The notes under the pieces are model-generated. The model was not told where the DNA came from, did no database searches, and saw only the letters and a program-made list of their open reading frames with translations. The position numbers and the translations under genes were made by a program. A stretch of 23,767 bases of DNA from a bacterium (GTDB taxonomy: Bacteria > T1Sed10-126), in contig PWOD01000010.1 of assembly GCA_003557545.1 (NCBI GenBank), positions 1 through 23,767 on the forward strand. The letters are read 5' to 3'. Within the stretch, counting starts at the first letter, position 1; each line of letters starts with the position of its first letter. Positions 3,082 to 22,820 of the stretch are shown here, piece after piece.

Positions 3082-4557
3082 ATGCCGGATAGTTACAGTG
3101 AATCAGAGGAGTATCAGATACGCCAGGAGAAATTAGAAAAACTTGAACAACGGGGAATTGATCCGTACCCCCATAATTTCAATAAAATTCAGACAGTTGC
3201 GGAGGCCGTCGATCTGTTTGTCGACGACCCGGATGAGGAGCTGGGAGAAACCGTCAAGGTCGCCGGACGTATAAGACGGCGGCGGCTGCACGGCAAAGCT
3301 GCCTTTGCCGACCTGGTTGATCACAGCGGACAGATACAGCTCTACCTATCGGCCCGTTATCTGGACGACTCGGAGCAGTTTGATCTATTCAACGAACTGC
3401 TTGATATTGGCGATTTTATCGGTGTCCAGGGGGAGCTTTTTAAAACCAATGAAGGTGAAATATCGGTTGTTGTGCGAAATTTTAAAATTCTCAGCAAGGG
3501 TCTTCGACCACTGCCCGAGAAGTTCCACGGATTAAAAGATACAGAACTTCGTTACCGTAAAAGATACCTTGACCTGCTGGATAATCCCGAGGTTAGAGAA
3601 CTTTTTCTGCAGCGCAGTCAATTTGTTTCCGGCTTGAGAAACTGGCTGGAAAACCGTAATTTCATCGAAGTTGAGACACCAATGATGCAGACGCTGGCCG
3701 GGGGAGCTGAGGCCGAACCGTTTATTACTCATCACAATACACTGGATCTTGATCTCTACCTGCGAATCGCCCCCGAACTGTTTCTCAAACGGCTGCTGGT
3801 CGGGGGATTTGAAAAAGTTTATGAGATCAACCGTAACTTCCGTAACGAAGGTATCTCAACCCGGCACAACCCGGAATTTACGATGCTTGAACTGTACTGG
3901 GCCTATGCTGACTACAAGGAGATCATGGTCCTCACCGAACAGCTGCTCAGCTCGGTCATAGAACAGTTCAACCCGGAGTTGATCACCGAGTACCAGGAAA
4001 ACTCGATTGACTGGAACACTCCCTGGGAAAGATTAACCATTGAACAGGCTATTGAACGGCACACCGGGATAGAACTCAATTCTGAGATGTCGGTGGAAGA
4101 GATCAGAAAACTGGCTGAAACTAACGGTTATCAGCTGGAACCGGCTGACAGCAGTGAGGCGCAGATCTTTGAGCTGTTTGAAACAGCCGTAGAAAAACAA
4201 CTGATCGATCCCACCTTCATTATTGATTTTCCGGCCAGCCTCTCCCCGCTGGCTAAACGGCACCGCAATGCTCCCGAACGGGCCGAACGGTTCGAACTGT
4301 TTGCCGGGGGGCTGGAAGTGGGCAACGCCTACTCTGAGTTAAACGACCCCCGGGAACAAAAAGAAAACTTTCTCCGGCAGACGGAGGATAGCAGTAAAAT
4401 CGACAGCGATTATATTGAAGCCCTCGAATACGGAATGCCCCCGGCCGGCGGGCTGGGCCTGGGTATTGACCGACTGGTGATGCTGTTAACCAATTCTGCC
4501 AGCATCCGGGATGTCATTCTTTTCCCACTCCTGCAACCGCTATCCCGGGAGGACTGA
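3082..4557 (+). CDS. lysS: Lysyl-tRNA synthetase, class II
   Basis: This 491-residue enzyme charges tRNA-Lys with lysine in the cytoplasm. An OB-fold anticodon-binding domain covers about 55-140 and is followed by ELRYRKRYLDLL (155-166), diagnostic of LysS. Class II motif 1 lies around FIEVETPMM (194-202), motif 2 around FRNEG (253-257) with RHNPEFTMLELYWAY, and motif 3 at GLGLGIDR (457-464) with IRDVILFP. The length is normal for bacterial LysS. The ATG has an AAGGA about 10 bases upstream. The stop TGA (4555-4557) abuts the ATG of the next gene, so lysS probably heads an operon with the lipoprotein-release transporter. The gene begins about 100 bases after the transposase unit and is intact. 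Confidence 0.98.
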   Translation: MPDSYSESEEYQIRQEKLEKLEQRGIDPYPHNFNKIQTVAEAVDLFVDDPDEELGETVKVAGRIRRRRLHGKAAFADLVDHSGQIQLYLSARYLDDSEQFDLFNELLDIGDFIGVQGELFKTNEGEISVVVRNFKILSKGLRPLPEKFHGLKDTELRYRKRYLDLLDNPEVRELFLQRSQFVSGLRNWLENRNFIEVETPMMQTLAGGAEAEPFITHHNTLDLDLYLRIAPELFLKRLLVGGFEKVYEINRNFRNEGISTRHNPEFTMLELYWAYADYKEIMVLTEQLLSSVIEQFNPELITEYQENSIDWNTPWERLTIEQAIERHTGIELNSEMSVEEIRKLAETNGYQLEPADSSEAQIFELFETAVEKQLIDPTFIIDFPASLSPLAKRHRNAPERAERFELFAGGLEVGNAYSELNDPREQKENFLRQTEDSSKIDSDYIEALEYGMPPAGGLGLGIDRLVMLLTNSASIRDVILFPLLQPLSRED

Positions 4558-5787
4558 ATGGCCTCGAAAAAGAAACCCAGCCTGCGTAACCGTGGGGAAC
4601 GGGTGTTTTTCCTGTTTCGAATGATTACGCGGTTTTTGTTTCGTTCCCAGAATGTCGGAGTACTCCCCTATCTCACACTGTTCGCGTTCATCAGCATCAC
4701 CATTGGGGTTGCAACTCTGATCATTGTGCTGTCAGTGATGAACGGTTTTTCCACAACATTACAGGACCAGCTTGTCGGGATATACAGTCCCATACGTGTC
4801 TATCCTCGCGGCGCGCGATCTCTCCGACTGGACAGCCTTAAAGAACAGCTTAAGGAGCAGCCACAGGTCACACAGGTTATCGGAGTAATTGAAGGAGAAG
4901 TTCTCTTCCAATCGGGTCCTGCCTCATATTCCGGAGGGAAAATTTTAGCCTACACAGACTGGCGGACAGATCGACTGCCGGTCGACCAACCAACCGGTGA
5001 GGGGATTCATCTGGGCAGTGAGCTGGCCCGCAGCCTCTGGGTAGGAGAAGAGGATGAACTAACAATTATTCGACCGGATGCCCAGCGGACTCCGTTCGGC
5101 CTGCTACCAGCCGGACAAAAAGTGGCTGTTAAAGGGCATTTTAGAAGCGGCTTCCAGGATGTTGATTCAGCCCTGGGACTGGTTTCCGAAGAACAGGCGC
5201 GGCGACTTTTCAACCTTGAAGAAAATCTCACTAACTATGCCGAAATCTGGATTGCTGATAGATTCCGAGCCGATCAGTTAAAAACCCAGCTGGAGAAGCT
5301 GCTGGACGGTGAATACCGGCTGGTCACCTGGTCAGAGGCAAATCCTGCCCTGTTCGAAGCTCTACAGCTGGAAAGAACTGTCACCTTTATCGTCCTGGTG
5401 CTGATCGTGCTGGTGGCAGCAATAAATATTTTAAGCATGTTAATTCTATCGATCCTCCAGCGACGACGACAGATTGCCATGATGATGTCGATGGGCGCCA
5501 CACCACGGACAATCCTGGTATTGTTCCTGGCAGCGGGGATGCTAATTACGACCGCAGGACTGGTGGCCGGGTTCGGGATCGGACTGAGCGGATGCTACCT
5601 GATGGACAATATTTTTGTGATTGATCTGCCGCCGGTGTATCCAATGGACAGTCTTCCTGTCCAGGTTGATCAGTTCCACCTGCTGGCCATCGGTGTAGTA
5701 ACCTTTATCCTGGGATTCATCAGCTCCCTGTATCCAGCCTGGGCGGCCGCACGAATCGATCCGGCAGAGGTCTTAAGATATGGATAA
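4558..5787 (+). CDS. Lipoprotein-releasing ABC transporter permease, LolC/LolE family
   Basis: The 409-residue protein has the MacB/FtsX permease layout. One membrane segment lies at about 38-62 (YLTLFAFISITIGVATLIIV), then a periplasmic domain of roughly 210 residues. Three further membrane segments follow near 275-298, 318-345 and 372-396. It ends [20 protein letters not shown], the typical C-terminus of LolC/LolE. In LolCDE the permease extracts mature lipoproteins from the inner membrane and passes them to LolA. Only one permease gene is present, so it may work as a homodimer, as proposed for bacteria with a single LolC/E protein. The start directly follows the lysS stop, and the last 8 bases overlap the ATPase gene, which points to translational coupling. 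A related export permease is the alternative. Confidence 0.88.
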   Translation: MASKKKPSLRNRGERVFFLFRMITRFLFRSQNVGVLPYLTLFAFISITIGVATLIIVLSVMNGFSTTLQDQLVGIYSPIRVYPRGARSLRLDSLKEQLKEQPQVTQVIGVIEGEVLFQSGPASYSGGKILAYTDWRTDRLPVDQPTGEGIHLGSELARSLWVGEEDELTIIRPDAQRTPFGLLPAGQKVAVKGHFRSGFQDVDSALGLVSEEQARRLFNLEENLTNYAEIWIADRFRADQLKTQLEKLLDGEYRLVTWSEANPALFEALQLERTVTFIVLVLIVLVAAINILSMLILSILQRRRQIAMMMSMGATPRTILVLFLAAGMLITTAGLVAGFGIGLSGCYLMDNIFVIDLPPVYPMDSLPVQVDQFHLLAIGVVTFILGFISSLYPAWAAARIDPAEVLRYG

Positions 5788-6487
5788 AACTATTCTTAGG
5801 GCAGAAAATATAAACCATTCATATCGCCCCGACAGACCGATACTCCAGGAGATAAATCTAACGCTTAACCAGGGTGAAGCGATAGCCATCCAGGGACCAT
5901 CAGGAGTCGGCAAGACAACCCTGCTGGAAATCCTTGGAACAATGCGCTCACCCAGCAGCGGCCAGGTGAAAATCATGGGAGAAAATGTTTATGCCGGTGA
6001 TCGTCGCCAGCAGGCATTGATCCGCGGGAACTGGTTAGGCTTTGTTTTCCAGGAAGCACTTCTGCTGCCGGACCTGACCATCTGGGAAAACTGCCGTCTG
6101 GCGGTGGACCTGGCCGGACGGCACTGGAGTAGTAAACAGATCTACGCCCGGTTTGAAGAACTGATCAGTTTACTGGGATTAAATCCAGAGCGACGAGCTG
6201 ATTATCCAGCCCAGTTCTCCACCGGCGAAAGACAGCGGATAGCCATTGTCCGGGCCCTGATCCACAAACCCCGGCTGCTAATTGCTGACGAACCAACCGG
6301 TAATCTTGATCACCGGGCAAGTTCACAGCTGATCGACCTGTTAACCCCACTGGTCCAACAGCAGCAGGTGGGGATGATTATCGCCACTCACGACCCGGTG
6401 ATGGCAAACTCAATTAAAAATCTTTACGTACTTGAAGAAACTTTATTAAAATCTTCTAACATCCAAACTAAAGAAAGGAGTGACTGA
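5780..6487 (+). CDS. Lipoprotein-releasing ABC transporter ATPase, LolD-like
   Basis: This 235-residue ATP-binding subunit would power the adjacent LolC/E-like permease at the inner membrane. Walker A is GPSGVGKTT (39-47), the Q-loop glutamine is Q91, Walker B is [12 protein letters not shown] (166-177) and the switch histidine is H204. The ABC signature reads STGERQR (147-153) rather than the usual SGGERQR, a mild change also seen in functional ABC proteins. The EPTGNLD sequence is typical of the MacB/LolD/FtsE group. The gene overlaps the permease by 8 bases and ends 5 bases before ilvE. Confidence 0.9.
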
Positions 6488-6492
6488 CTACC

Positions 6493-7371
6493 ATGTCGTC
6501 ACTATCAATCTGGTTAGACGGTAAGTTTGTTCCTGAAGAAGATGCAAAAATTAGTATCTTTGACCACGGTTTACTTTACGGAGATGGTGTATTTGAAGGA
6601 ATCAGAGCCTATGGAGGAACTGTTTTCAAACTCAAAGAACATATCGACAGACTGTACAAATCAGCCCGGGTTATTAAACTAAAAATTCCTCTTTCACCGG
6701 ACGAAATGACCGAGGCAGTACTTGAATCCTGCCGGCGCAACCAGGTGGAAAACGGCTATATCAGACTGGTCGTCACCCGGGGCCGGGGTGATTTGGGTCT
6801 GGATCCCCAGAAATGTCCCAAACCGACCATCTTCATCATTGCCGCCGATATCGAACTATATCCCGAAGAGGCCTACACCAAAGGCTTAAAACTGGTTACT
6901 GTCCCTACCCGGCGAAATCTTGCTGAATCGGTCAATCCACGAATTAAATCTCTTAACTACCTCAACAATATTATGGCCAAGATGGAAGCTCATCAGGCCG
7001 GGGCCAAAGAGGGTATCATGTTAAACGACCAGGGTTATGTGGTGGAATGCACAGGGGACAACATCTTTATTATCGAATCCCTTAAAAAACTGCGCACCCC
7101 CCCACCCTACATGGGAGCCCTGGAGGGCATAACCAGGCAGACCTTAATGGATATAGCCGAAGCCAGTGGTTTTGACGTGATTGAAGAACCACTCAACCGG
7201 TACGATTTATATGTTGCCGACGAATGTTTTGTAACCGGCACGGCCGCTGAGGCTCTCCCGGTTATTGAAATAGATGGACGGGAGATCAACGGCGGCAAAC
7301 CGGGACCACTAACCCGGGAGTTGATCGACAAGTTCCGTAATTCTGTCTGTGATTACGGCACACCAATATAA
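6493..7371 (+). CDS. ilvE: Branched-chain amino acid aminotransferase (class IV)
   Basis: The 292-residue protein is a PLP-dependent fold-type IV aminotransferase, most like IlvE, which interconverts branched-chain keto acids and Leu, Ile and Val with glutamate. It has FDHGLLYGDGVFEGIRAYGG (23-42) and K152 in PRIKSLNYLNN as the PLP-binding lysine. GTAAEALPV comes near the C-terminus. D-amino-acid aminotransferase and ADC lyase share this fold, but EGIRAY and the length favour IlvE. AAAGGAG lies 12 bases before the ATG, overlapping the end of the ATPase gene, so the two are probably co-transcribed. No biosynthetic partner genes are nearby. Confidence 0.9.
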   Translation: MSSLSIWLDGKFVPEEDAKISIFDHGLLYGDGVFEGIRAYGGTVFKLKEHIDRLYKSARVIKLKIPLSPDEMTEAVLESCRRNQVENGYIRLVVTRGRGDLGLDPQKCPKPTIFIIAADIELYPEEAYTKGLKLVTVPTRRNLAESVNPRIKSLNYLNNIMAKMEAHQAGAKEGIMLNDQGYVVECTGDNIFIIESLKKLRTPPPYMGALEGITRQTLMDIAEASGFDVIEEPLNRYDLYVADECFVTGTAAEALPVIEIDGREINGGKPGPLTRELIDKFRNSVCDYGTPI

Positions 7372-7504
7372 GGGTTTTTCCATCCAGAAACAGATAACCA
7401 ATATCTGACGGAATAAAACCAGGGTTCAGCCTGTTCTTATAGGAGCTACTAAAAATAACCTGTCAGGGAACAGGGTTAATTTCTTATAAATGGATTGATT
7501 CACT
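7372..7504 (+). promoter_or_regulatory. Leader region before mcsA with small hairpin
   Basis: This 133-base gap separates ilvE from the mcs genes. CAGATA (7391-7396) and TATCTG (7402-7407) form a perfect 6-bp stem with a 5-base loop. CCTGTTC (7430-7436) and GAACAGG (7468-7474) are complementary over a longer loop. TATAAA at 7485-7490 resembles a -10 box, but I find no good -35 at the right distance. I see neither CtsR heptad repeats nor a CIRCE element. A promoter here is plausible but unproven. Confidence 0.3.
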
Positions 7505-8008
7505 ATGAAGTGTGAACATTGCAAATCAGCCGAAGCAACGCTGCATCATGTTCTGGTGAAAGATAACAAGGTACTGCATCACCACCTCTGCGAAGCCTGT
7601 GCGAAAAAACTCAAACAGGCCCAGGGGTTTGATAAAGCCAATCCGATTGGAGCCGCCCTGGCCGGGCTACAGGACGATGATGAACTGGCCTCAACCGCCA
7701 ACTGTTCGAACTGCGAGGCGGAACTGACAGATTTTCTCAGCTCCGGCCGGTTTGGCTGTGCGGACTGTTACAGTTCCTTTGCTGAAGATATTGAACCGTT
7801 GATCAAAAGAATCCATGGGAGCGACAGGCATGCCGGTAAGGGTAGCAGTCTGACAACAAGCTCCGCACTACCGGAAAACCAACAACTCCAGCTGCTGGAA
7901 AAACAGCTGGAAAAAGCAGTCGCCCTGGAGGATTATGAAGAAGCGGCCCTTTTGCGAGATGAAATCTTTAAACTGAAAGAACAGGATTCAGATGACAATA
8001 CCAATTGA
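7505..8008 (+). CDS. mcsA: McsA: zinc-finger activator of the McsB arginine kinase
   Basis: The 167-residue protein has two pairs of CxxC motifs: C3/C6 with C29/C32, and C67/C70 with C85/C88. These are the expected zinc sites of McsA. A C-terminal UVR motif occupies about 131-160 (LEKAVALEDYEEAALLRDEI). In Firmicutes McsA binds and activates the protein arginine kinase McsB and helps deliver substrates to ClpC. The gene overlaps mcsB by 17 bases, so the two are likely translationally coupled. The ribosome site is poor (only a GGA about 10 bases upstream of the ATG), although the start is fixed by MKCEHC. Confidence 0.92.
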   Translation: MKCEHCKSAEATLHHVLVKDNKVLHHHLCEACAKKLKQAQGFDKANPIGAALAGLQDDDELASTANCSNCEAELTDFLSSGRFGCADCYSSFAEDIEPLIKRIHGSDRHAGKGSSLTTSSALPENQQLQLLEKQLEKAVALEDYEEAALLRDEIFKLKEQDSDDNTN

Positions 8009-9047
8009 CCCCCATACACCCTCAACCTGGCTGAGAACTGAAGGGCCGGATTCCGACGTTGTTATCAGCAGCAGGGTGCGGTTTGCCAGAAATCTGCAAA
8101 ACTATCCGTTTGCCAGTAAAAACAGCCGGGAAAACAGGGAAAAGCTACTTGATGAGATTTTTTCTGTTATCCAGGAATATCCCCCGGGAGCAAACTGGAT
8201 TACCAGCCGGCTGGAAGAGTTAAGCTCAATCGAGAAGAACCTGCTGGCCGAAAGAAATCTCATAAGCAAACAGCTGTTAACGGAACCAGCCGGCGGAACA
8301 GCCTTTATTCCAGAGGAAACCCTGGGAGTAATGATTAATGAAGAGGATCACCTGCGAATTCAGGCGATAACCGCCGGTAATGATCTGGATCTGGCCCTCG
8401 CACAAGCAACAGATCTGGAACGTTTTTTTGATACCAGGTTCGAGTTTGCCTACGATGAAAAATGGGGTTACCTTACCTCCTGCCCAACCAACCTCGGGAC
8501 TGGATTCAGAGGCTCCATCCTGCTGCATCTACCGGGCCTGGTGATCACTGAAAAACTAAACCGAGTTCTGAACGCCATCTCTAACCTGGGTCTAACCGTA
8601 CGGGGATTTTATGGAGAAGGCAGCGAGACACGAGGATTTTATTTTCAACTTTCTAACCAGATCACACTGGGACGTTCTACCGAGGATTTCCTGGCCAGTT
8701 TAAAACGGGTTGGAGAGAAAATTATTTCGCACGAACGAGCCGCCCGGGAGCAGCTGTTAAAAAAACGTGATTTAGGGTTAAAAGATAAGATTGGCCGAGC
8801 TTTCGGTATTTTAAAATATGCCCATCAGATAGAATCTGAGGAAGCGATCGAGCTGCTCTCAATGTGTCGTCTTGGAGCGGACAGAAAGCTCCTTCCCGAA
8901 TTAAAAATAAAAAAACTGGACGGTTTTTTACAACTTCTTCAACCAGCCCATCTACAGCAGAGCGTTGGCACCGAACTGACCAGCGAAGAGCGTGAGTCCT
9001 ACAGAGCCCGGCTGGTGGAGAAAGAGTTTTCCACAACCCCGTCCTGA
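7992..9047 (+). CDS. mcsB: Protein arginine kinase McsB
   Basis: McsB transfers phosphate from ATP to arginine residues of proteins and so marks them for ClpC-ClpP. The 351-residue length matches the family. SSRVRFARNL (26-35), NEEDH (116-120), SCPTNLGTG (163-171) and RGFYGEGSE (204-212) are the conserved phosphagen-kinase-fold segments of McsB, including the acidic and arginine-rich active-site loops. SNQITLGRST follows. The arrangement mcsA-mcsB-clpC is the classical stress cassette, but the usual upstream ctsR is not seen here. The predicted product is cytoplasmic. No key residue appears to be missing, so it should be active. Confidence 0.95.
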   Translation: MTIPIDPHTPSTWLRTEGPDSDVVISSRVRFARNLQNYPFASKNSRENREKLLDEIFSVIQEYPPGANWITSRLEELSSIEKNLLAERNLISKQLLTEPAGGTAFIPEETLGVMINEEDHLRIQAITAGNDLDLALAQATDLERFFDTRFEFAYDEKWGYLTSCPTNLGTGFRGSILLHLPGLVITEKLNRVLNAISNLGLTVRGFYGEGSETRGFYFQLSNQITLGRSTEDFLASLKRVGEKIISHERAAREQLLKKRDLGLKDKIGRAFGILKYAHQIESEEAIELLSMCRLGADRKLLPELKIKKLDGFLQLLQPAHLQQSVGTELTSEERESYRARLVEKEFSTTPS

Positions 9048-9095
9048 GTATCTTATCCTCTGGTAGAAGATACCATTTCCAGATAAAAATGGTAT
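9048..9095 (+). promoter_or_regulatory. Two overlapping hairpins between mcsB and clpC
   Basis: GTATCTT (9048-9054) pairs with AAGATAC (9067-9073). ATACCATTT (9070-9078) pairs with AAATGGTAT (9087-9095). The second stem starts inside the first, at ATAC, so the two cannot form fully at once. A T5 run follows at about 9105-9109, too far from the second stem for a classic terminator. Mutually exclusive stems like these could regulate read-through into clpC, but this is an inference. Confidence 0.4.
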
Positions 9096-9177
9096 TATTA
9101 AGATGTTTTTGCAGATTATTGAATCATCAAGTTGACTATAAATCTATTCAACAATCCTTCTGAGGTGAAGCGTTAAA

Positions 9178-11700
9178 ATGTTTGAAAATTACACAGATCG
9201 GGCTCGTAAATCACTGCGTAAATCAAAAAATATCTCCCGCCGCACCGGCAGCCAGGAAGTCGAACCGGAACATCTGCTGATAGCTTTACTGGAGATTGGC
9301 AGCGGAATCGCAGTCGATATTCTCCAGGAACTGGGGATCGAACCACAAAAACTGCTGACCAAACTTACCGACCTCATCGACGTCAGCACAGAGACCGAGG
9401 CCGAGGAAAAGACTCCCCAGCAGCCGGATTATTCTCAAGCCCTCCAGAGAACTCTGTCGCTGGCGGAAAAAACAGCCCGGGAACTGGGCCATAATTATGT
9501 TGGAACAGAGCATCTACTTATCGGACTGGCAGCAAGCAAGAGTGGCCCTGTGGCTGAACTGTTTGACAGTTACAAGGTCACAGCCGGCCAGGTCAAAAAA
9601 CTACTGATCGAAATTCTCAACGAGGAATATGGTCTGGAATACGGTTTTGTTGTCTCGTCGGGGAAAAAATCATCCGAGGAAGGAACGGGTAAACGGAAAA
9701 AAAATAAGTCTAAAACTCCAACCCTTGATGCTTTTTGCCGGGATCTTACCGAACTGGCTCGAAACGACCTGCTGGACCCGGTAATCGGTCGTAAAAAAGA
9801 GATTGAACGGGTTACCCAGATTCTATCGCGCCGAAAAAAGAACAACCCCGTTTTAATCGGTGAACCGGGAACCGGTAAAACAGCCATTGTTGAGGGGCTG
9901 GCCAAACAGATCGTTAATGTTGACGTTCCTCAGGCTCTTTACAACAAACGGCTAATGGCACTGGATCTGGCACTGGTTGTTGCCGGAACAAAATACCGGG
10001 GAGGGTTTGAACAGCGGATGAAAAAACTCCTGGAAGAGATCCAACAGTCCCAGGAGATAATCCTATTTATTGATGAGATACATTCACTGGTGGGAGCCGG
10101 GTCGGCAGAAGGTGCAATCGACGCTGCCAGCATTCTCAAGCCGGCCCTGGCCCGGGGAGAGATTCAATGTATAGGAGCAACTACGCTGGATGAATATCGA
10201 CAGCATATTGAGAAGGACTCCGCTCTGGAAAGACGGTTCCAGCTGATTAACATCGACGAACCATCTACTGAAGAAGCGATTAATATTTTGCAGGGCCTAA
10301 AACCCAACTATCAAAACCATCATAACGTCAACTATTCAGATGAAGCGATCGAGGCGGCGGTAAAACTTTCTCACCGTTATCTTTCCAACAGCTATCTACC
10401 GGATATCGCCATCGACGTAATCGACGAAGCAGGCAGCCGGGCCAAACTAGAATTTTCCATGCCACCCCGTGAGATACGTGAACTGGAGCATGAGCTGGAC
10501 AACCTCCAAAATCAAAAAAGTGAGGCAGTTTCATCACAGGAATTTGAAAAAGCCGCAGCCCTGCGAGACAAAGAAAGCAAACTGAAAGAAGAGCTGGATA
10601 AAGTCAAGACAGAATGGGAGAAGAATGACCCGGAGCGGCCCGATATAGGTGAAGAAGAGATAGCCAAACTGGTCAGCGACATGTCAGGAATTCCGGTATT
10701 CAAACTAACCGAAAAAGAGCAGGCCAAGCTCCTCCGGCTGGAGGAGGATATTCACAAAAGACTGGTTGACCAGGCTGATGCAGTCAGTGCAGTCAGCCGG
10801 GCCATCCGCAGAGCTCGGACAGGACTTAAAGATCCCAGCCGGCCGGTCGGCAGTTTTATGTTCCTGGGACCCACCGGAGTAGGTAAAACCGAATGTGCCC
10901 GGGCCCTGGCCGAACTGTTGTTTGGTGATGAACAGCACATGATCCGGGTAGATATGAGCGAGTTTATGGAAAAACATTCTGTCTCCCGGCTGGTGGGAGC
11001 ACCTCCTGGATATGTCGGATATGAAGAGGGAGGTCAACTGACCGAACAGGTCCGACGTAACCCCTACTCGGTTGTACTGCTGGATGAGATTGAAAAAGCC
11101 CACAATGAGGTTTATAACATCCTGCTGCAGATATTTGAGGATGGGGTGCTGAGTGATAATCTGGGCCATAATGTCGATTTTCGCAACACAATCATCATTA
11201 TGACCTCAAACGTGGGGGCCCGGGAGATTACCAATGCCGGTTCCATGGGGTTTCGAACCGGGGATGAACAATCACTTGATTATGTCGATATTAAAGACCG
11301 GGCGATGACCGAATTAAAACGAAAATTCAATCCTGAGTTTATTAACCGGCTGGATGAAATAATTGTCTTCAAATCACTGACAAAAGAGGATCTGCAGGGA
11401 ATAATCGAACTGATGCTGGGCGAAGTCAACGAGCGGTTAAAGGAACAGGGATTTACTCTGGAGGTCGACCAGGCTGCCCGCGAATACCTGATTGAAAGGG
11501 GCTATGATCCAGACTACGGAGCCCGACCGCTGCGCCGTACAATTGAGCGTAAAATCGAAGATTCACTGGCCGAAGCAATCTTACGGGGACAGTTTAAAGC
11601 GGGCGGAAAAATCCTTGTTACATATGAGGATAACAGCCTTAACTTTGAAAAACAGCCCCCGCCGGATGATTCGGATGATGAAACTACGGATGAAAATTAA
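9178..11700 (+). CDS. clpC: ClpC ATPase, AAA+ unfoldase
   Basis: ClpC unfolds substrates and feeds them to the ClpP protease. The 840-residue protein has two N-terminal Clp repeats (about 5-140). AAA+ domain 1 has Walker A GEPGTGKT at 228-235 and [13 protein letters not shown] downstream. A middle region carries a UVR motif ([20 protein letters not shown], around 455-482). AAA+ domain 2 has Walker A GPTGVGKT at 564-571. MGF at 690-692 matches the [LIVM]GF loop that docks ClpP. The UVR middle domain identifies ClpC rather than ClpB. GAGGTG lies 9 bases before the ATG. The C-terminal tail is acidic. The gene follows mcsB by 130 bases and would receive phosphoarginine-marked substrates. No clpP is in the window. 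Confidence 0.97.
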
Positions 11701-11732
11701 GAACCACCATTTTAGCCGGGAGGTTTATGAAT

Positions 11733-12854
11733 ATGTTTAAACTGTTAAGCTGCTTTTCCCTCCTCCTTATGATCTGTCTACCAGCGCTATCCTACAGCCA
11801 GGTCAATATGTCAGCTTTACCGCCTCGTTCATCAATCGAAATTAGTTTTACTGAAAATCATCCACCGGTTGTCCGGGAAACCCGACAGGTCCGCCTGGAC
11901 AGTGGTATTAACCAGCTTGAATTTCGCTGGAACAGGGTAACAATCAATCCCCGTTTAATCGAACTCTATCTTCCACCGGAAAAAGCTATCGAACTTATAG
12001 AAACCGAACGATTTTTAGATGTCCCGGCTCTAACCTGGAGCTTAGACTCTGCCCAGCGCGTTAGTTTCAATCTGCAGCTGCTATACCAGGTAGAAAACCT
12101 TAACCGAGAAACTTCCTACCGGGCTGTACTTCAACCTGACTCGAAATTAGTCGATCTATACCAGTATACGAGCCTGTTTAATAACTCCGGGGAGGATTTT
12201 GTTGATGCAACAGTTGTTCTGGATGAACAGCTGATCGAGCAACAGACTCTGCGCGATGGTGAGTCCCGCAGATTTTTGTCACTGCGGCAGGAGGCGATCC
12301 CCTACTGGCTAACCTATCACTATACTGCCGGCGAACACCCGGGTAGAAGGGACCAGGAACAACCACTAAAAGTCAGCTACGGTTTCCATAATCCTGGTGA
12401 TCCTGAAGCTGCCAGCAGCCTGATGCCGGCGGGGAAGCTCCAGCTATTTGAAAAGAATGACCAGGGAAAGGTTTTTCTCTCCGAAACTAAGCTTGCGGCG
12501 TTTCCTGCCGGTGATACGGTCAATCTTTCGGCAGGAAAAAGCCGTGATATTGCTATAGAAGAAAGGCTTTTAGAGGAGGAACGGATGGATGTTTTTCGTG
12601 ATGAAGACGGTATTATACAACTTTATAACAGTAAAAAAAGCTGGCGATTTGAAATTGAAAATTTTCGACCGGACACAGTAACTTTACAGCTGGACAAACC
12701 AATGGAGGGTGAATGGGAGATTGTCGACAGCTCACACCCGACCAAACGGATCAACGCCAGGTTAATCCGATTCAAGCTGGAACTGCCACCAACCACCGAA
12801 ATTCCAGTTGAGCTGAGTTATATCATCAAACACAGGGGGAGACGATTACGATGA
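11733..12854 (+). CDS. Secreted DUF4139-like protein, first of a tandem pair
   Basis: An in-frame ATG at 11727 lies only 3 bases after GGGAGG (11718-11723), whereas the ATG at 11733 is 9 bases away, so I prefer 11733. The product then has 373 residues and starts with a signal peptide (MFKLLSCFSLLLMICLPALS). The mature part looks beta-rich and begins with ETRQVRLDSGINQLEFRW. This aligns by eye with VREIRSVNLTEGTNQLSLTW in the next gene, so the two are paralogues. That strand pattern is seen in DUF4139 proteins, whose function is unknown. It has no recognisable catalytic motif. A cell-envelope role is suggested only by export and by the neighbouring SurA-like gene. Confidence 0.75.
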   Translation: MFKLLSCFSLLLMICLPALSYSQVNMSALPPRSSIEISFTENHPPVVRETRQVRLDSGINQLEFRWNRVTINPRLIELYLPPEKAIELIETERFLDVPALTWSLDSAQRVSFNLQLLYQVENLNRETSYRAVLQPDSKLVDLYQYTSLFNNSGEDFVDATVVLDEQLIEQQTLRDGESRRFLSLRQEAIPYWLTYHYTAGEHPGRRDQEQPLKVSYGFHNPGDPEAASSLMPAGKLQLFEKNDQGKVFLSETKLAAFPAGDTVNLSAGKSRDIAIEERLLEEERMDVFRDEDGIIQLYNSKKSWRFEIENFRPDTVTLQLDKPMEGEWEIVDSSHPTKRINARLIRFKLELPPTTEIPVELSYIIKHRGRRLR

Positions 12855-14170
12855 AACTCCTGTTACTAACGCTGATTGCTACTCTGTTATTTCCAGCAAA
12901 CCTGCTGGCCGGAGTTTCCCTGGGAACAACTGCCACTATTGAACGGACCGATCTAACAATTTACTCCCGACAGGATCTAACATTTGTTCGAGAAATACGG
13001 TCGGTCAACCTGACCGAAGGTACAAACCAGCTGAGTCTGACCTGGGATAATAAGATGATCGATCCCGCCTCGCTATATCTTACTACAGTTGACGACCTGC
13101 CCGGTGTGACGGTTGAAGAGCAGATTTTCACATCCGCCAATCCCACAGCTGTAAGCTGGAAAATATTCTCTCAGGAAGCCCAAACAGTTCAAGTGGAAAT
13201 AAGTTATTTCATGCTGGGATTGAACTGGTCGGCAGAATACATGGGAAAACTTGATCCGACTGAAGAAACTCTCCAGTTGTCCGGCAAAGTAACTGTGAAA
13301 AATACCAGTGGAACCAGCTTTGAAAACAGCTCGGTTCACCTGTTTATTGGAGAAGTTGAGCTGCTGGAAAAGCTGGCCAACTCGATCCGCCAGTGGCGCC
13401 AAAAACTGGTTGGCGAAGCAAGTCCCCCTGTCGTAATGGACTACTTTGCGGAACAGCCCCAGCAGATGTTAAGACGGGAGTCAGCCCGCGCCCTGATGGC
13501 ACCGGCGGCGACCGTAGAAACAACCACTATGGAAAGACGTGCGGAACATTATCTTCTGAGTTTAGAACCGGCAATCAACCTGGCTGACGACCAGCAAAAA
13601 CAGCTGACCTTTCTACCCCGGGTCAAACTCCCGGTTACCACGGTTTACAGTCTGATGGGAACCGGTACAAACAGATCACCACGACGTTTATTGAAATTTA
13701 CCAATGAGACAGCCACCGATCAAGAGGAGATCCCCCTGCCCGGGGGCCAACTACAGCTGTTGGAAACAAACCGGGCCGGCCATCTATTAGCCCTTGGGGG
13801 GGTTACCCTTGACTATCTTCCAGTCGGTGGAACTGCTGAACTTGAACTGGACAGGGACCGCCATATTCGTGTTAGTCCAACCCTTCAAAAACAGGTGAGC
13901 AGCGACCATAAGTTCAACGATGAAGGTCGACTTCGTGGATGGTATGAAAAGCTCACCTTCGAGGTCAAAGTAAAAAACTTCAAACCGGTTCCAATAACTC
14001 TGCATTTTTACCAGGATTTCCCCGATCCCCACTGGGAACTTTTAACAGAACTCCCTGAGTTCAAAAGACAAACCGCCCGGCGCCTGAAACTCAACCTGGA
14101 GATTGAAGCCGGTCAAACCCGAACTATTGAATACCCTATAGGCCGAAAATTTGGTGAACTACGTGATTAA
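12851..14170 (+). CDS. Secreted DUF4139 domain protein, second of a tandem pair
   Basis: This 439-residue protein overlaps the previous gene by 4 bases (ATGA), indicating translational coupling. It starts with a signal peptide (MKLLLLTLIATLLFPANLLA). The N-terminal stretch IERTDLTIYSRQDLTFVREI, followed by TEGTNQLSLTWDNKMIDPAS, is the DUF4139-type opening. LNWSAEYMGKLDPTEETLQL is also characteristic, and the C-terminal half looks like repeated beta strands ending RTIEYPIGRKF. It is longer than its partner, with an insertion around 175-235 containing a basic segment and the helix-like stretch AEQPQQMLRRESARALMAPA. Function is unknown. The pair may form a complex, but this is an inference from tandem duplication and coupling. 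Confidence 0.8.
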   Translation: MKLLLLTLIATLLFPANLLAGVSLGTTATIERTDLTIYSRQDLTFVREIRSVNLTEGTNQLSLTWDNKMIDPASLYLTTVDDLPGVTVEEQIFTSANPTAVSWKIFSQEAQTVQVEISYFMLGLNWSAEYMGKLDPTEETLQLSGKVTVKNTSGTSFENSSVHLFIGEVELLEKLANSIRQWRQKLVGEASPPVVMDYFAEQPQQMLRRESARALMAPAATVETTTMERRAEHYLLSLEPAINLADDQQKQLTFLPRVKLPVTTVYSLMGTGTNRSPRRLLKFTNETATDQEEIPLPGGQLQLLETNRAGHLLALGGVTLDYLPVGGTAELELDRDRHIRVSPTLQKQVSSDHKFNDEGRLRGWYEKLTFEVKVKNFKPVPITLHFYQDFPDPHWELLTELPEFKRQTARRLKLNLEIEAGQTRTIEYPIGRKFGELRD

Positions 14171-14951
14171 CCGAAACAATCCTCAAGGTACTAAAAAATC
14201 CTCTGGCACAGCCAGTCTATCCCCGAAGGTTTACGCTCCCGGGGCACCGGTCAAACCAGTTTATGACGAAGAGCTTTTACAAAAGTTCATTCGCGGAGAG
14301 ATTATTTTCGGTAGTATTTTAATGGCAATAGGAGGGTTTGTTCTGCGCTATATCGAATCGGCCAGTTTTATTATTGCCGGACTGCTTTTTGTGGGGATGG
14401 GAATTTTCAGACTAACTCAGACAAAATTTTCCGGAGAGAATAAAAAAAAATCAGCTTATCCCGAGGATAGATTACTGTTTCGGCTAAAAACTCAGCTAAA
14501 TCCAGACTGGTTCGTAGCACTTAACTATGAGCTGCCAGATGATGGTAAAATAGCAACCTTTGTGGCCGGCCCCGGAGGACTGTTTGTTATCGATAAAGTT
14601 GACCTTTCGGGAGAAATAAATGTAACTGACAAAAAGAGCAGCTGGAAACATACAGCTCCGGATGGTGAAGTAAACAAAATCCCCAATCCGCTGGAGCTGA
14701 ACAGAAAAAAAATTGATCAGCTGCAAAAAAGATTTAGCAGGCAGGGGTTACAGATCGACATACCGCCGGAAAACTGCGTGGTACTGATGAAACACAACCT
14801 GTCGGGATCAGCCACTGAGCTGGAGCAGGTTTTCAGATTAGGCGAGATCACCGATTACATAGTAGAACAGAATCCTCAGGTAAATTTTACCTGGGAAAAG
14901 GTCGATAAAATCGAACAGGCAATGACTGAATCGATGCATCGGATTTATTAG
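14151..14951 (+). CDS. Membrane-anchored NERD-like protein, active site apparently degraded
   Basis: Two adjacent hydrophobic segments (about 50-70 and 72-88) form a membrane hairpin. A cytoplasmic-looking domain of about 180 residues follows. It includes NPDWFVALNYELP and FVAGPGGLFVIDKVDLSGEI, like NERD (nuclease-related) domains. Active NERD domains have an acidic residue before the GPGGLF strand and an E-x-K after it. Here those positions read T and D-K-V, so nuclease activity is doubtful. The start is unclear: TTG 14151, GTG 14154 and GTG 14163 are all in frame and overlap the previous gene; GTG 14163 has GGTGA 5 bases upstream. The overlap with the DUF4139 gene suggests the three genes are one unit. 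An unrelated membrane protein cannot be excluded. Confidence 0.65.
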   Translation: MVNYVINRNNPQGTKKSSGTASLSPKVYAPGAPVKPVYDEELLQKFIRGEIIFGSILMAIGGFVLRYIESASFIIAGLLFVGMGIFRLTQTKFSGENKKKSAYPEDRLLFRLKTQLNPDWFVALNYELPDDGKIATFVAGPGGLFVIDKVDLSGEINVTDKKSSWKHTAPDGEVNKIPNPLELNRKKIDQLQKRFSRQGLQIDIPPENCVVLMKHNLSGSATELEQVFRLGEITDYIVEQNPQVNFTWEKVDKIEQAMTESMHRIY

Positions 14952-15004: not shown

Positions 15005-15032
15005 ACCACTATAAAACACAGGAGATTTGACG

Positions 15033-16013
15033 ATGGTAAAGCTACTATTTAGCTGTTTAATGATTACTATATTATTTTTCATACCCTGCCAAAACCCCGT
15101 TTTCGGACAGCTGCAGTCCGAATTTGATCAACTGCCCGTTCCCGACGTGATCGAGCCACGCCCGGAGGCTGACGAACCGCCGGGCGATGGCATGCTAAAT
15201 CGTATCTTTGCCCATGTTGGTAACCGTGTGATCAGTCTGGCAGACTACCGAGAAAGCTACGGAACCAGTAAACTGGAGGAGAATAAATTACGTTCTTTGA
15301 TCGAAGAAAAACTGCTGTTACTGGCCCTTGATGAACTGGAAATACAGCTCGATCAACGGGAGATTGAACGGGTTATAAAGGACCAGGTTGAACAGATGAA
15401 AAATGCGGTGGGAACAGCAGAGTTTTCCCGCTACCTCAACCAGCAGGGGATTTCTAAAGAGGATTTTACCCGCCTGCTGGTTGAACAAACTATCAGCCAG
15501 CAAAAACTACAGACAGTCCTGGTTACTGTTTTTCCTGAACTACGACCAGCTGATACTCCCACGGTCGGCTCAAGACCATCCAAAATACGGGGGCGGTTAA
15601 TGCTATTTCCCGATCAACAGATGGCTGACACAGCCTACCGACAGCTGGACCGGGAAAAAAACTGGCGAAAGGTATTTAATGAATATTCCCGTAAACTGGC
15701 ATTCATGGGCGACTACGGAGACCTCGGCTGGTTCGCCTGGGGTAATTACGCTGAAGAGATGGAATACACCCTGTTCAAACTTCCCCTTTATGGAATCAGT
15801 CAACCGTTTGAATTTCGCGGGTTTTATGCGATTGTCCAAAAGACCGGAACCCGGCTTATCCCCCCCTGGACCGAGGTTGATATGCGCACATTGCAGCGCT
15901 GGGAACAATACCGTTTTCAACATCACAAAGAAAAACTGCTGGCGAAACTCTGGGAACATTACAAGGTTAAAATTCCAGCCTCGCTTGAAATAGATTTACA
16001 GCCTCCCCGATGA
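15033..16013 (+). CDS. surA: SurA-like periplasmic chaperone / parvulin-type isomerase
   Basis: GGAG (15021-15024) lies 8 bases before the ATG at 15033, which I prefer to the in-frame TTG at 15027. The 326-residue product starts with a signal peptide (MVKLLFSCLMITILFFIPCQ, cleaved near VFG-Q). A SurA-type N-terminal helical domain follows (ANRVISLADY-like segment HVGNRVISLADYRESYG, with IEEKLLLLALDEL). One parvulin-like domain then reads GDYGDLGWFAWGNYAEEME. SurA helps outer-membrane proteins fold and has isomerase activity in some homologues. This protein has one parvulin domain instead of two, so isomerase activity is uncertain. The next gene overlaps by 4 bases. The surA-pdxA-rsmA order, as in E. 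coli, strengthens the call. Confidence 0.85.
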   Translation: MVKLLFSCLMITILFFIPCQNPVFGQLQSEFDQLPVPDVIEPRPEADEPPGDGMLNRIFAHVGNRVISLADYRESYGTSKLEENKLRSLIEEKLLLLALDELEIQLDQREIERVIKDQVEQMKNAVGTAEFSRYLNQQGISKEDFTRLLVEQTISQQKLQTVLVTVFPELRPADTPTVGSRPSKIRGRLMLFPDQQMADTAYRQLDREKNWRKVFNEYSRKLAFMGDYGDLGWFAWGNYAEEMEYTLFKLPLYGISQPFEFRGFYAIVQKTGTRLIPPWTEVDMRTLQRWEQYRFQHHKEKLLAKLWEHYKVKIPASLEIDLQPPR

Positions 16014-20134: not shown

Positions 20135-20183
20135 CTTTTTTCTCTACGGCCGGGCAACAGATTAATTCCTGGTGGTAAAACCG

Positions 20184-22820
20184 ATGACCACCAGAATTAA
20201 CCGGGCCCTATCGATTGATGAAATATTCGCTGCCACCCGCCAGTATGACTATATAATCACTGCTGACACCCCGCTGGCTGAAGCTCTAAACAACCGGATT
20301 GAAAATCCCCGCCTCGGTAAATTCGCCTACACTCCCCGGGGACTGGTCTATGAAAATCTCCCGGCAAGCGGCAGCTTGATGGATCGACGAGAACTTTTTT
20401 TACAGTTATTAAGGGAGTTTCCCCTGGAGCCCAATAAGCTGCTTTACCAGCTGGAAAATATTCTGGATTGCTGGCAGGAAACCGGGAGCGCAGAAAATAT
20501 TCTAAAATTTAAAGGCTATAACAGCCACTCTTTCAAACAGCTGCTGGACTACCTCAGGGGAACCGACAATATCTTCCGTCACCTGGAGGAGTTTCAACCG
20601 GACCCGACGGCCAACTGCTGTATAATTGCTCCATACCAGTTTAAAACCCTGGACAGATCAACATTATGTGATAACTATCCCCGGCTGGATCCACTGTTGG
20701 ACAGCCGCTGGCAACTACCTGAATTCAACCTCTATTCATCAGCCCGGGAAATAACCGACACGGTGCTGGCCTCTTTAAAAAGTTACTCGGCGACCGAAAT
20801 TGCCGTGGTAGTTGATCCTAAAAGTAGCTACCAGGCCCTTCTGGAGGCTGAATTGCAGGCAGAAAAAATTCCCTATTACCCCAGCCTCCTGGTCAGTGAA
20901 TCAACTGAATTTCGCAGTTTTATCGGTCTGCTCAAACTTTCTCTTGAAGGTACTGAACTTGATTATCGGACCGTCTCGCCGATGATTCACAGTCTTGCCC
21001 TTGTCCCCTCAGGACAGTATCAGAATGAACTGATCACGGAGCTTGATGATTCCCGGATAAAGCAGTTTTTAAAGCTATTAAATGAGCTGCAGGAAACCCG
21101 GTTTGAAACCGCCCTCCAGCGGTTTGAAAAAATGGCTGGAGTTGACCTGACTAAAACAGCTGAAATTTTTGCCGAACTCCAGCTACTGGATAAAAAAATC
21201 ACCGAAAAACGGATTAGGTTTTTTGAGTTTTATATGGAGAGTTTCAATCCGTCGGTTGAAATCACCGACAGACCGGGAGTTCTGCTGGTCTCCCCGACCG
21301 GGTCATCATTTATTGACCGGCCGGTAATTTTCTATCTCGGACTGGATCAATCCTGGAGTGGAAAAGAGCCGAACCGGCCCTGGAGACAGGCCGATAAAAA
21401 CCGGCAGAGGAATCTTAAAGATTTTTGTCTACTATTGCAAAACGGTATCCAACAACATTTCCTCGTGCAGAATTTTATTCAGAACAAACCGGTTAAACCA
21501 TCCCCCTATTTAAATCTACTGAGCTCAGACAGAGCAGAAAAATTCTCCGATTTTTCTGCCCAACAGAGATTAGTTAAAAAAACTGAGTCGATAACGGAAA
21601 AACCTTTCAGCCGGGAGTTCACAGTCCCGCCGAAAACCAGTACCAGCTTCAGTCAATCAGCGCTCAACCGGTTTGTAGAATCTCCCCGCAACTACCTGTT
21701 CGAACGACTAACCCCCACCTATCAGAACCGGTATTTAAAGACTGGGACGATCTACCACGAGTTTGCCGAATTCTACCTAGAACATCCAGAGTTTGTAAAA
21801 AACAGCGGACTAACTAAACTGACCGAAACAGCTTACCAGCCGCTGGCGGCCTATTACGACCCGCTAGAAAAACCTATTGTTCTCAGCAAACTACAGCTCG
21901 GCATGGAAACCATCATGAGCTTTCTGGATGCCCGGTTGGAAAGGATTAAACGGTCAACTACAGCAGCCATAATTCAGCCCGAAAATCCTGATCGGCATAC
22001 AAACTATTTTGCGAACCAGTACAACCTGCCACTGATGCGCAACTACACAGAACTATCCTTTCATGAGGAAAAGCTGGGTGTTACGGGAAAAATCGACCTG
22101 CTGCTGTCACCCCGACATATAGTTGATTACAAGAGTGGGAGACGGCGAACAGTCAGACAATCAGCCCGACTGGCGAAGGTTAATCTGTTAGAAGATGCGG
22201 TCGATTTTCAGCCGATTCTCTATCTGTTCTATCTACAGAGTCTCCTCCCCGATAAAAAATTAGAGTTCAGCTTTTTTTATTTTCTAGAAGAGCTAAACGA
22301 GCAGCTGACAGCTCACGGTAACCAACCGGAACCGGTGATTGAAACAGTCAACTATTTTCCGGTTAACTTTTCAAAGTTACTGACCAGTGAAGAGCTTTAT
22401 CGGCATCTGATTAATAACGCCGGTTCCTCAACTAACCGGCTCAAACTACTCAACCGGCTGGAGTTTAACGGTTTCAAACAGTTTTTTCAGGAGAAACAAT
22501 GGCCGGAACAGATGATTGAAAAGATCGAAGAAAATGATATCTACCGGGAGTTCGTCGAGTTTTGTGAAAACCAGGTGGGGAATCACAAATATGTCAGCCG
22601 GGGAGCGAAGGGTATTTTTAAACGGCTAACAGAGTTTCGTGAAATCAACTTTTTCCCGGCCGATTTAGAGAACTTTTCCAAATTTTTAGAGGTCTCACTG
22701 GAAAAACTAAATCAGTATAACCGATCACGTTTTCCGGTCCGGGGGGAACTGGAACAGTTTGAGATTGACGATCTTCCCAACCGGGATTTACTTTTGAGTG
22801 ATAACCATGAAACCGAATAA
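20184..22820 (+). CDS. AddB/RecB-like subunit with PD-(D/E)XK nuclease domain
   Basis: An in-frame GTG at 20172 is available, but I prefer ATG 20184, 8 bases after GGTGG, giving 878 residues. The C-terminal third carries a RecB-family nuclease: TIYHEFAEFYL, then GKIDLLL with D638, VDYKSG with D648 and K650, and FQPILYLFYLQ with Q676 and Y680 (the QxxxY motif). These residues are the expected metal and catalytic set, so nuclease activity is likely. The N-terminal two thirds have no Walker A and resemble the inactive helicase-like part of AddB. I see no AddB-type four-cysteine iron-sulphur cluster. The next gene, a UvrD-type helicase, overlaps by 14 bases. Together they look like an AddAB-type DNA-end processing enzyme for recombination repair. 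Confidence 0.85.
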   Translation: MTTRINRALSIDEIFAATRQYDYIITADTPLAEALNNRIENPRLGKFAYTPRGLVYENLPASGSLMDRRELFLQLLREFPLEPNKLLYQLENILDCWQETGSAENILKFKGYNSHSFKQLLDYLRGTDNIFRHLEEFQPDPTANCCIIAPYQFKTLDRSTLCDNYPRLDPLLDSRWQLPEFNLYSSAREITDTVLASLKSYSATEIAVVVDPKSSYQALLEAELQAEKIPYYPSLLVSESTEFRSFIGLLKLSLEGTELDYRTVSPMIHSLALVPSGQYQNELITELDDSRIKQFLKLLNELQETRFETALQRFEKMAGVDLTKTAEIFAELQLLDKKITEKRIRFFEFYMESFNPSVEITDRPGVLLVSPTGSSFIDRPVIFYLGLDQSWSGKEPNRPWRQADKNRQRNLKDFCLLLQNGIQQHFLVQNFIQNKPVKPSPYLNLLSSDRAEKFSDFSAQQRLVKKTESITEKPFSREFTVPPKTSTSFSQSALNRFVESPRNYLFERLTPTYQNRYLKTGTIYHEFAEFYLEHPEFVKNSGLTKLTETAYQPLAAYYDPLEKPIVLSKLQLGMETIMSFLDARLERIKRSTTAAIIQPENPDRHTNYFANQYNLPLMRNYTELSFHEEKLGVTGKIDLLLSPRHIVDYKSGRRRTVRQSARLAKVNLLEDAVDFQPILYLFYLQSLLPDKKLEFSFFYFLEELNEQLTAHGNQPEPVIETVNYFPVNFSKLLTSEELYRHLINNAGSSTNRLKLLNRLEFNGFKQFFQEKQWPEQMIEKIEENDIYREFVEFCENQVGNHKYVSRGAKGIFKRLTEFREINFFPADLENFSKFLEVSLEKLNQYNRSRFPVRGELEQFEIDDLPNRDLLLSDNHETE

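Follow-up and report, generated by a model that had tools for sequence, protein, structure and literature searches.

Two probably independent, adjacent units in a bacterial clpC operon: a co-inherited pair of exported DUF4139 proteins and a membrane NERD protein with a degenerate active site

The window, meaning the whole 23,767-nucleotide stretch of DNA analysed, belongs to a 2.15 Mb draft genome of 239 contigs (G000). Downstream of clpC, it carries two DUF4139 genes, which we call D1 and D2, followed by a gene for a membrane protein with a NERD domain and a gene for an exported peptidyl-prolyl isomerase (PPIase). The features of the locus are as follows.

9178 to 11700, + strand: clpC, encoding an AAA+ unfoldase (Pfam); final gene of the lysS-lolC-lolD-aminotransferase-mcsA-mcsB-clpC block and left neighbour of the NERD gene, kept in the relative.
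11727 to 12854, + strand: D1, a short secreted DUF4139 protein of 375 residues that lacks the central insert of D2 (Pfam, signal-peptide-like start, orthologues, tree).
12851 to 12854, + strand: four-base stop/start overlap of D1 and D2 (ATGA), in which D2 starts inside the D1 stop codon (sequence).
12851 to 14170, + strand: D2, a secreted DUF4139 protein of 439 residues with a central insert (Pfam, signal-peptide-like start, orthologues, tree).
14151 to 14951, + strand: membrane NERD protein, a transmembrane hairpin followed by a predicted cytoplasmic NERD domain whose active site is degenerate.
15027 to 16013, + strand: exported SurA/PrsA-like PPIase; right neighbour of the NERD gene, kept in the relative.

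The D1, D2 and NERD genes are arranged head to tail, with clpC ending 26 bases upstream of D1 and the PPIase gene starting 75 bases downstream of the NERD gene. The locus had been placed from position 11733 in the preliminary description; this is indeed an in-frame ATG, but it is the second one, the first ATG of D1 being 11727. The NERD gene overlaps D2 by 20 bases if it starts at the TTG at 14151, and by 8 bases if it starts at the GTG at 14163. No convincing promoter or terminator separating these genes was found, as few sites were detected on the + strand and the promoter counts were similar to those of shuffled sequence. Because of the overlap with the NERD gene and a codon usage resembling that of the neighbouring genes, D1-D2 are probably co-transcribed with the NERD gene and probably did not arrive recently. 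Recent horizontal transfer was considered and rejected, since the codon usage shows no sign of it.

Several other features of the window stand apart from this locus. Near the contig edge lies a gene for a Csx1/Csm6-type CARF-HEPN protein (407-1717, - strand); its neighbour (2012-2959) encodes an IS200-like transposase that carries an additional HTH domain. Additionally, an 882-residue protein is encoded at 20172-22820, for which the only Pfam match is PDDEXK_1 (residues 492-706), while NCBIfam and PADLOC gave none.

D1 and D2 are paralogues sharing 22% identity (BLASTP, E=2e-14 in a single comparison). Both match DUF4139 (PF13598) over nearly the full profile length, with E values of 1.3e-6 for D1 and 4.4e-7 for D2 and scores of 28.7 and 30.2 bits, respectively, against a curated cut-off of 31.8. 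All 14 pair members scanned match this profile (best E 1.8e-12), while similarity to DUF4140 is weak and confined to 2 of 7 D1 proteins. Each protein begins with a single hydrophobic segment resembling a signal peptide and lacks any other transmembrane segment. These features, together with the shared ATGA, bear out the preliminary description of D1 and D2 as secreted paralogues overlapping by four bases. No solved structure similar by sequence was found, and AlphaFold models built from two-sequence alignments reached a mean pLDDT of 41 for D2 and 37 for the NERD protein, too poor for a fold search.

The third protein matches the NERD profile (PF08378) with 35.6 bits against a cut-off of 22.1, and contains two adjacent hydrophobic segments at about residues 46-90, predicted transmembrane helices joined by only a very short loop; its earlier designation as a membrane-anchored NERD-like protein whose gene is overlapped by D2 is thus upheld. 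Since D1 and D2 have a single N-terminal hydrophobic segment each and the NERD protein has two adjacent ones, D1 and D2 are expected to be located outside the membrane and the NERD domain in the cytoplasm.

A profile made from the two orthologues, that of the window and that of a related genome (G001), detected a second NERD gene in both genomes, with the gene order conserved relative to a folA-like gene.

G000:C183, L217:7257-8150, - strand: intact NERD paralogue.
G001:C45: intact NERD paralogue of the relative.

Both paralogues keep the Q-[IM]-D-H and E-T-K motifs. In a profile alignment, the window-type and intact NERD proteins match with 97% and E=5e-11 across the transmembrane hairpin and the NERD domain. 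As the alignment runs through both parts, the window gene is a diverged copy of an intact membrane NERD protein. The D...E-T-K of intact NERD proteins is replaced by A...D-K-V in the window protein and by D...G-K-L in its orthologue in G001. Hence the active-site lysine is gone from both orthologues, and neither carries the nuclease-like D...E-x-K residues. The preliminary description had noted T and D-K-V in the NERD core; the change from E-T-K to D-K-V holds, but the acidic position itself is occupied by A, and the T aligns with the H that follows.

Two readings of this degenerate site have to be weighed against a non-enzymatic role. The protein may still act as a nuclease at the membrane with an altered active site, as its NERD match exceeds the Pfam cut-off and acidic residues remain nearby, namely the D of D-K-V and an E in the first helix. 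However, both orthologues lack the lysine, the window protein has A in place of the first acidic residue, and the intact paralogues of the very same genomes retain D...E-T-K, which makes this reading improbable. Judged by these residues, the window protein is a member of the domain family that is unlikely to be an active nuclease. Alternatively, the gene could be a decaying pseudogene, retained only through its position in the operon; the lost active site would suit this idea, as would the GC content of 0.433, the lowest among the genes compared. Decay is nevertheless very improbable because the reading frame is intact in two genera (250-266 residues) and the orthologues are 39-40% identical over their full length, similar to several neighbours (DivIC, McsA and PPIase, 38-44% between the same two genomes). 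Stretches outside the active site are conserved as well, for example SAYPxDRLLFRLK. That both species have lost the lysine supports the non-enzymatic role proposed earlier for the NERD protein.

Of the genomes compared, G001 alone belongs to the same family as the window genome, and it is 93% complete. Its record, PWHN01000037.1, is named 'bacterium isolate T1Sed10_126', a naming that we take to denote soda-lake sediment MAGs. The gene order of the window is the same in G001, running lysS-lolC-lolD-aminotransferase-mcsA-mcsB-clpC-NERD-PPIase-pdxA-rsmA-glycerate kinase-divIC, and the genes stand at the same positions (L033/L034), with 78% identity for clpC and 44% for PPIase. Specifically, clpC ends at L033:10500 and the NERD gene starts 6 bases further on, at 10506. 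No DUF4139 gene was found anywhere in G001 with the D2 query, the Pfam profile or the D1 profile. Additionally, the first 17 or so residues of the window NERD protein are missing from the G001 protein, and these lie where the NERD gene overlaps or abuts D2; such extra residues at the D2 junction are as expected if D1-D2 joined a pre-existing NERD gene. On the gene order of these two genomes, the NERD gene can be assigned to the clpC operon.

The lysS-to-clpC block itself, with an aminotransferase IV gene and spanning 3082-11700 of the window, is spread more widely. It is whole in L052, L103 and L110 and partial in L058, L060, L096, L101, L106-L109 and L111. These loci come from MAGs labelled Omnitrophota, Auribacterota and Chlamydiae, with part of the block in Elusimicrobia/Endomicrobia and Verrucomicrobia/Opitutae. 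A NERD gene after clpC was not found in the loci read from other phyla with this block.

The DUF4139 genes show a distribution of their own. Among 290 genomes searched for DUF4139, most of those with a match carry one gene and some carry two in tandem; in the tandem loci read, one member resembles D1 and the other D2. A profile of D1 separates full-length D1 proteins (at least 392 bits) from all other matches (at most 144 bits), and it also recovers the D1 of G068 with 409 bits, although this genome was absent from the construction of the profile. Of the 290 genomes, which cover many families, 8 contain full-length D1, and D2 is adjacent in all 8. The order is D1-D2 in G206, G209, G244 and G068 and D2-D1 in G184, G174 and G142, and the four-base overlap recurs in the pairs of G206 (L162), G209 (L164) and G174 (L169). 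Within the phylum of G244, D1 is present in 9 of 12 genomes, with D2 adjacent wherever the contig extends far enough, some contigs ending within the pair. The neighbours of the pair vary, even inside one phylum, and in the loci read none of them is NERD or clpC. D1-D2 is a unit of its own, inherited together across unrelated genomes.

Since D1 and D2 are adjacent paralogues, they might be regarded as products of a recent local tandem duplication, in which case the pairing would carry no information. Across unrelated genomes, however, D1 matches D1 with 1e-41 and D2 matches D2 with 7e-57, compared with 2e-14 between D1 and D2 of the window. A tree of 39 proteins, in which the group supports are moderate and some branches long, largely contradicts such a duplication as well: a branch sets apart each of the three groups, namely D1 (76/94), D2 (87/88) and the single-gene proteins (77/88). 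A recent duplication is thus hardly credible, and the tree and the matches point to D1 and D2 as each forming an old lineage of its own.

Other arrangements of DUF4139 genes were seen along the way. Tandem genes not of the D1-D2 kind comprise two single-type copies in G277 (L166), and long MuiA-like DUF4139 proteins are paired in G091 (L172), G028, G245 and G247. Single-gene DUF4139 proteins often adjoin valS-, recG- or priA-like reading frames, as read from protein starts, in unrelated genomes (L118, L119, L122, L127, L128, L129, L171).

These distributions bear directly on whether D1, D2 and the NERD protein act together. The preliminary description had suggested that the trio may be an uncharacterised envelope module; in such a module, D1 and D2 outside the membrane would signal through the NERD protein or be anchored by it. 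The layout fits this idea, with genes that overlap on one strand just past clpC, lack a convincing promoter or terminator in between, and have codon usage similar to the neighbours. But the sister genome keeps the NERD gene without D1-D2, and D1-D2 occur elsewhere without an adjacent NERD gene; moreover, the NERD domain is predicted to be cytoplasmic while D1-D2 are placed outside, and the loop between the transmembrane helices is very short. A functional trio is on balance distinctly improbable. When the same trio was sought in other genomes, its genes were apart in every relative found, so the claim of a module fails; as a conserved module, D1-D2-NERD is ruled out by G001 and by the DUF4139 pairs of other genomes. 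The operon is real and mostly ordinary, but its boundary had been misread, the three genes being juxtaposed in this lineage specifically.

Comparison with described proteins offers some guidance on function. The MuiA family (TIGR02231), which combines DUF4140 and DUF4139, has the DUF4139 homology in common with D1 and D2. D1 matches TIGR02231 weakly (E=7.6e-7), scoring 28.2 bits where the cut-off is 112.6, and D2 gives no match, which places neither in the family; D1 and D2 are also shorter than MuiA family proteins, and form a two-gene pair. MuiA of P. aeruginosa is reported to inhibit swarming and to enhance biofilm formation (PMC7603352). By analogy, and outside family membership, this effect is the sole functional hint for D1-D2.

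For the NERD protein, the closest studied parallel comes from S. aureus: SmdA, a membrane NERD protein that lacks several conserved NERD residues and is needed for normal division (PMC9040797). Like SmdA, the window protein appears to combine an N-terminal membrane anchor with a cytoplasmic degenerate NERD domain, and would in this respect be of the SmdA type. The two differ in that SmdA has one transmembrane helix and a monocistronic gene, whereas the window protein has a transmembrane hairpin and an operon gene. The intact membrane NERD paralogues likewise have a transmembrane hairpin and a NERD domain, with a folA-like neighbour instead of clpC. FtsH, PrsA, SpsB, ClpB and ClpC were recovered in a pull-down with SmdA (PMC9040797). 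The link to ClpC and PrsA thus comes from a pull-down for SmdA and from gene neighbourhood for the window protein. The parallel between this pull-down and the clpC-NERD-PPIase order, found in two genomes, in one of which D1-D2 lie between clpC and NERD, is suggestive.

NERD domains also occur in defence proteins such as BREX PglW and MADS6, which gave weak NERD-domain matches to the window protein. Unlike these, the window protein has no kinase or other effector domain and no PADLOC match. The PADLOC search likewise returned nothing for D1 or D2, and a defence role for the three proteins was set aside on this ground.

Together, we favour, with somewhat better than even confidence, the explanation that two independent units lie side by side: an exported D1-D2 pair, and a non-enzymatic membrane NERD protein belonging to the clpC operon. 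According to this explanation, D1 and D2 are exported DUF4139 proteins that are inherited as a pair and whose translation is probably coupled; in the periplasm or at the cell surface, they would assemble into an obligate heteromer. D2, which bears the insert found in the common single-gene DUF4139 proteins, would be the main subunit and D1 its shortened partner. The NERD protein would be a membrane-tethered binding protein without enzymatic activity that, by analogy with SmdA, perhaps brings ClpC or ClpC substrates to the membrane. D1-D2 would have either entered between clpC and NERD in the lineage of the window or been lost from the sister lineage, and a lineage-specific functional link between D1-D2 and the NERD protein may exist. 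A bolder version is unlikely: the dead membrane NERD protein would be an adaptor tying McsA-McsB-ClpC to the membrane and to the exported PPIase, with SmdA playing the same role, and D1-D2 would separately constitute an exported complex of two subunits that has so far gone unrecognised.

Two new, modest observations on little-studied families result: DUF4139 genes that are inherited as a pair, and a pseudo-NERD protein encoded beside clpC. DUF4139 is almost unstudied, and a D1-D2 pair found across unrelated lineages offers a testable heteromer hypothesis. The clpC-NERD-PPIase order provides an independent genomic hint on the unexplained pull-down of ClpC and PrsA with SmdA, and thereby makes it testable what degenerate NERD domains do at the membrane.
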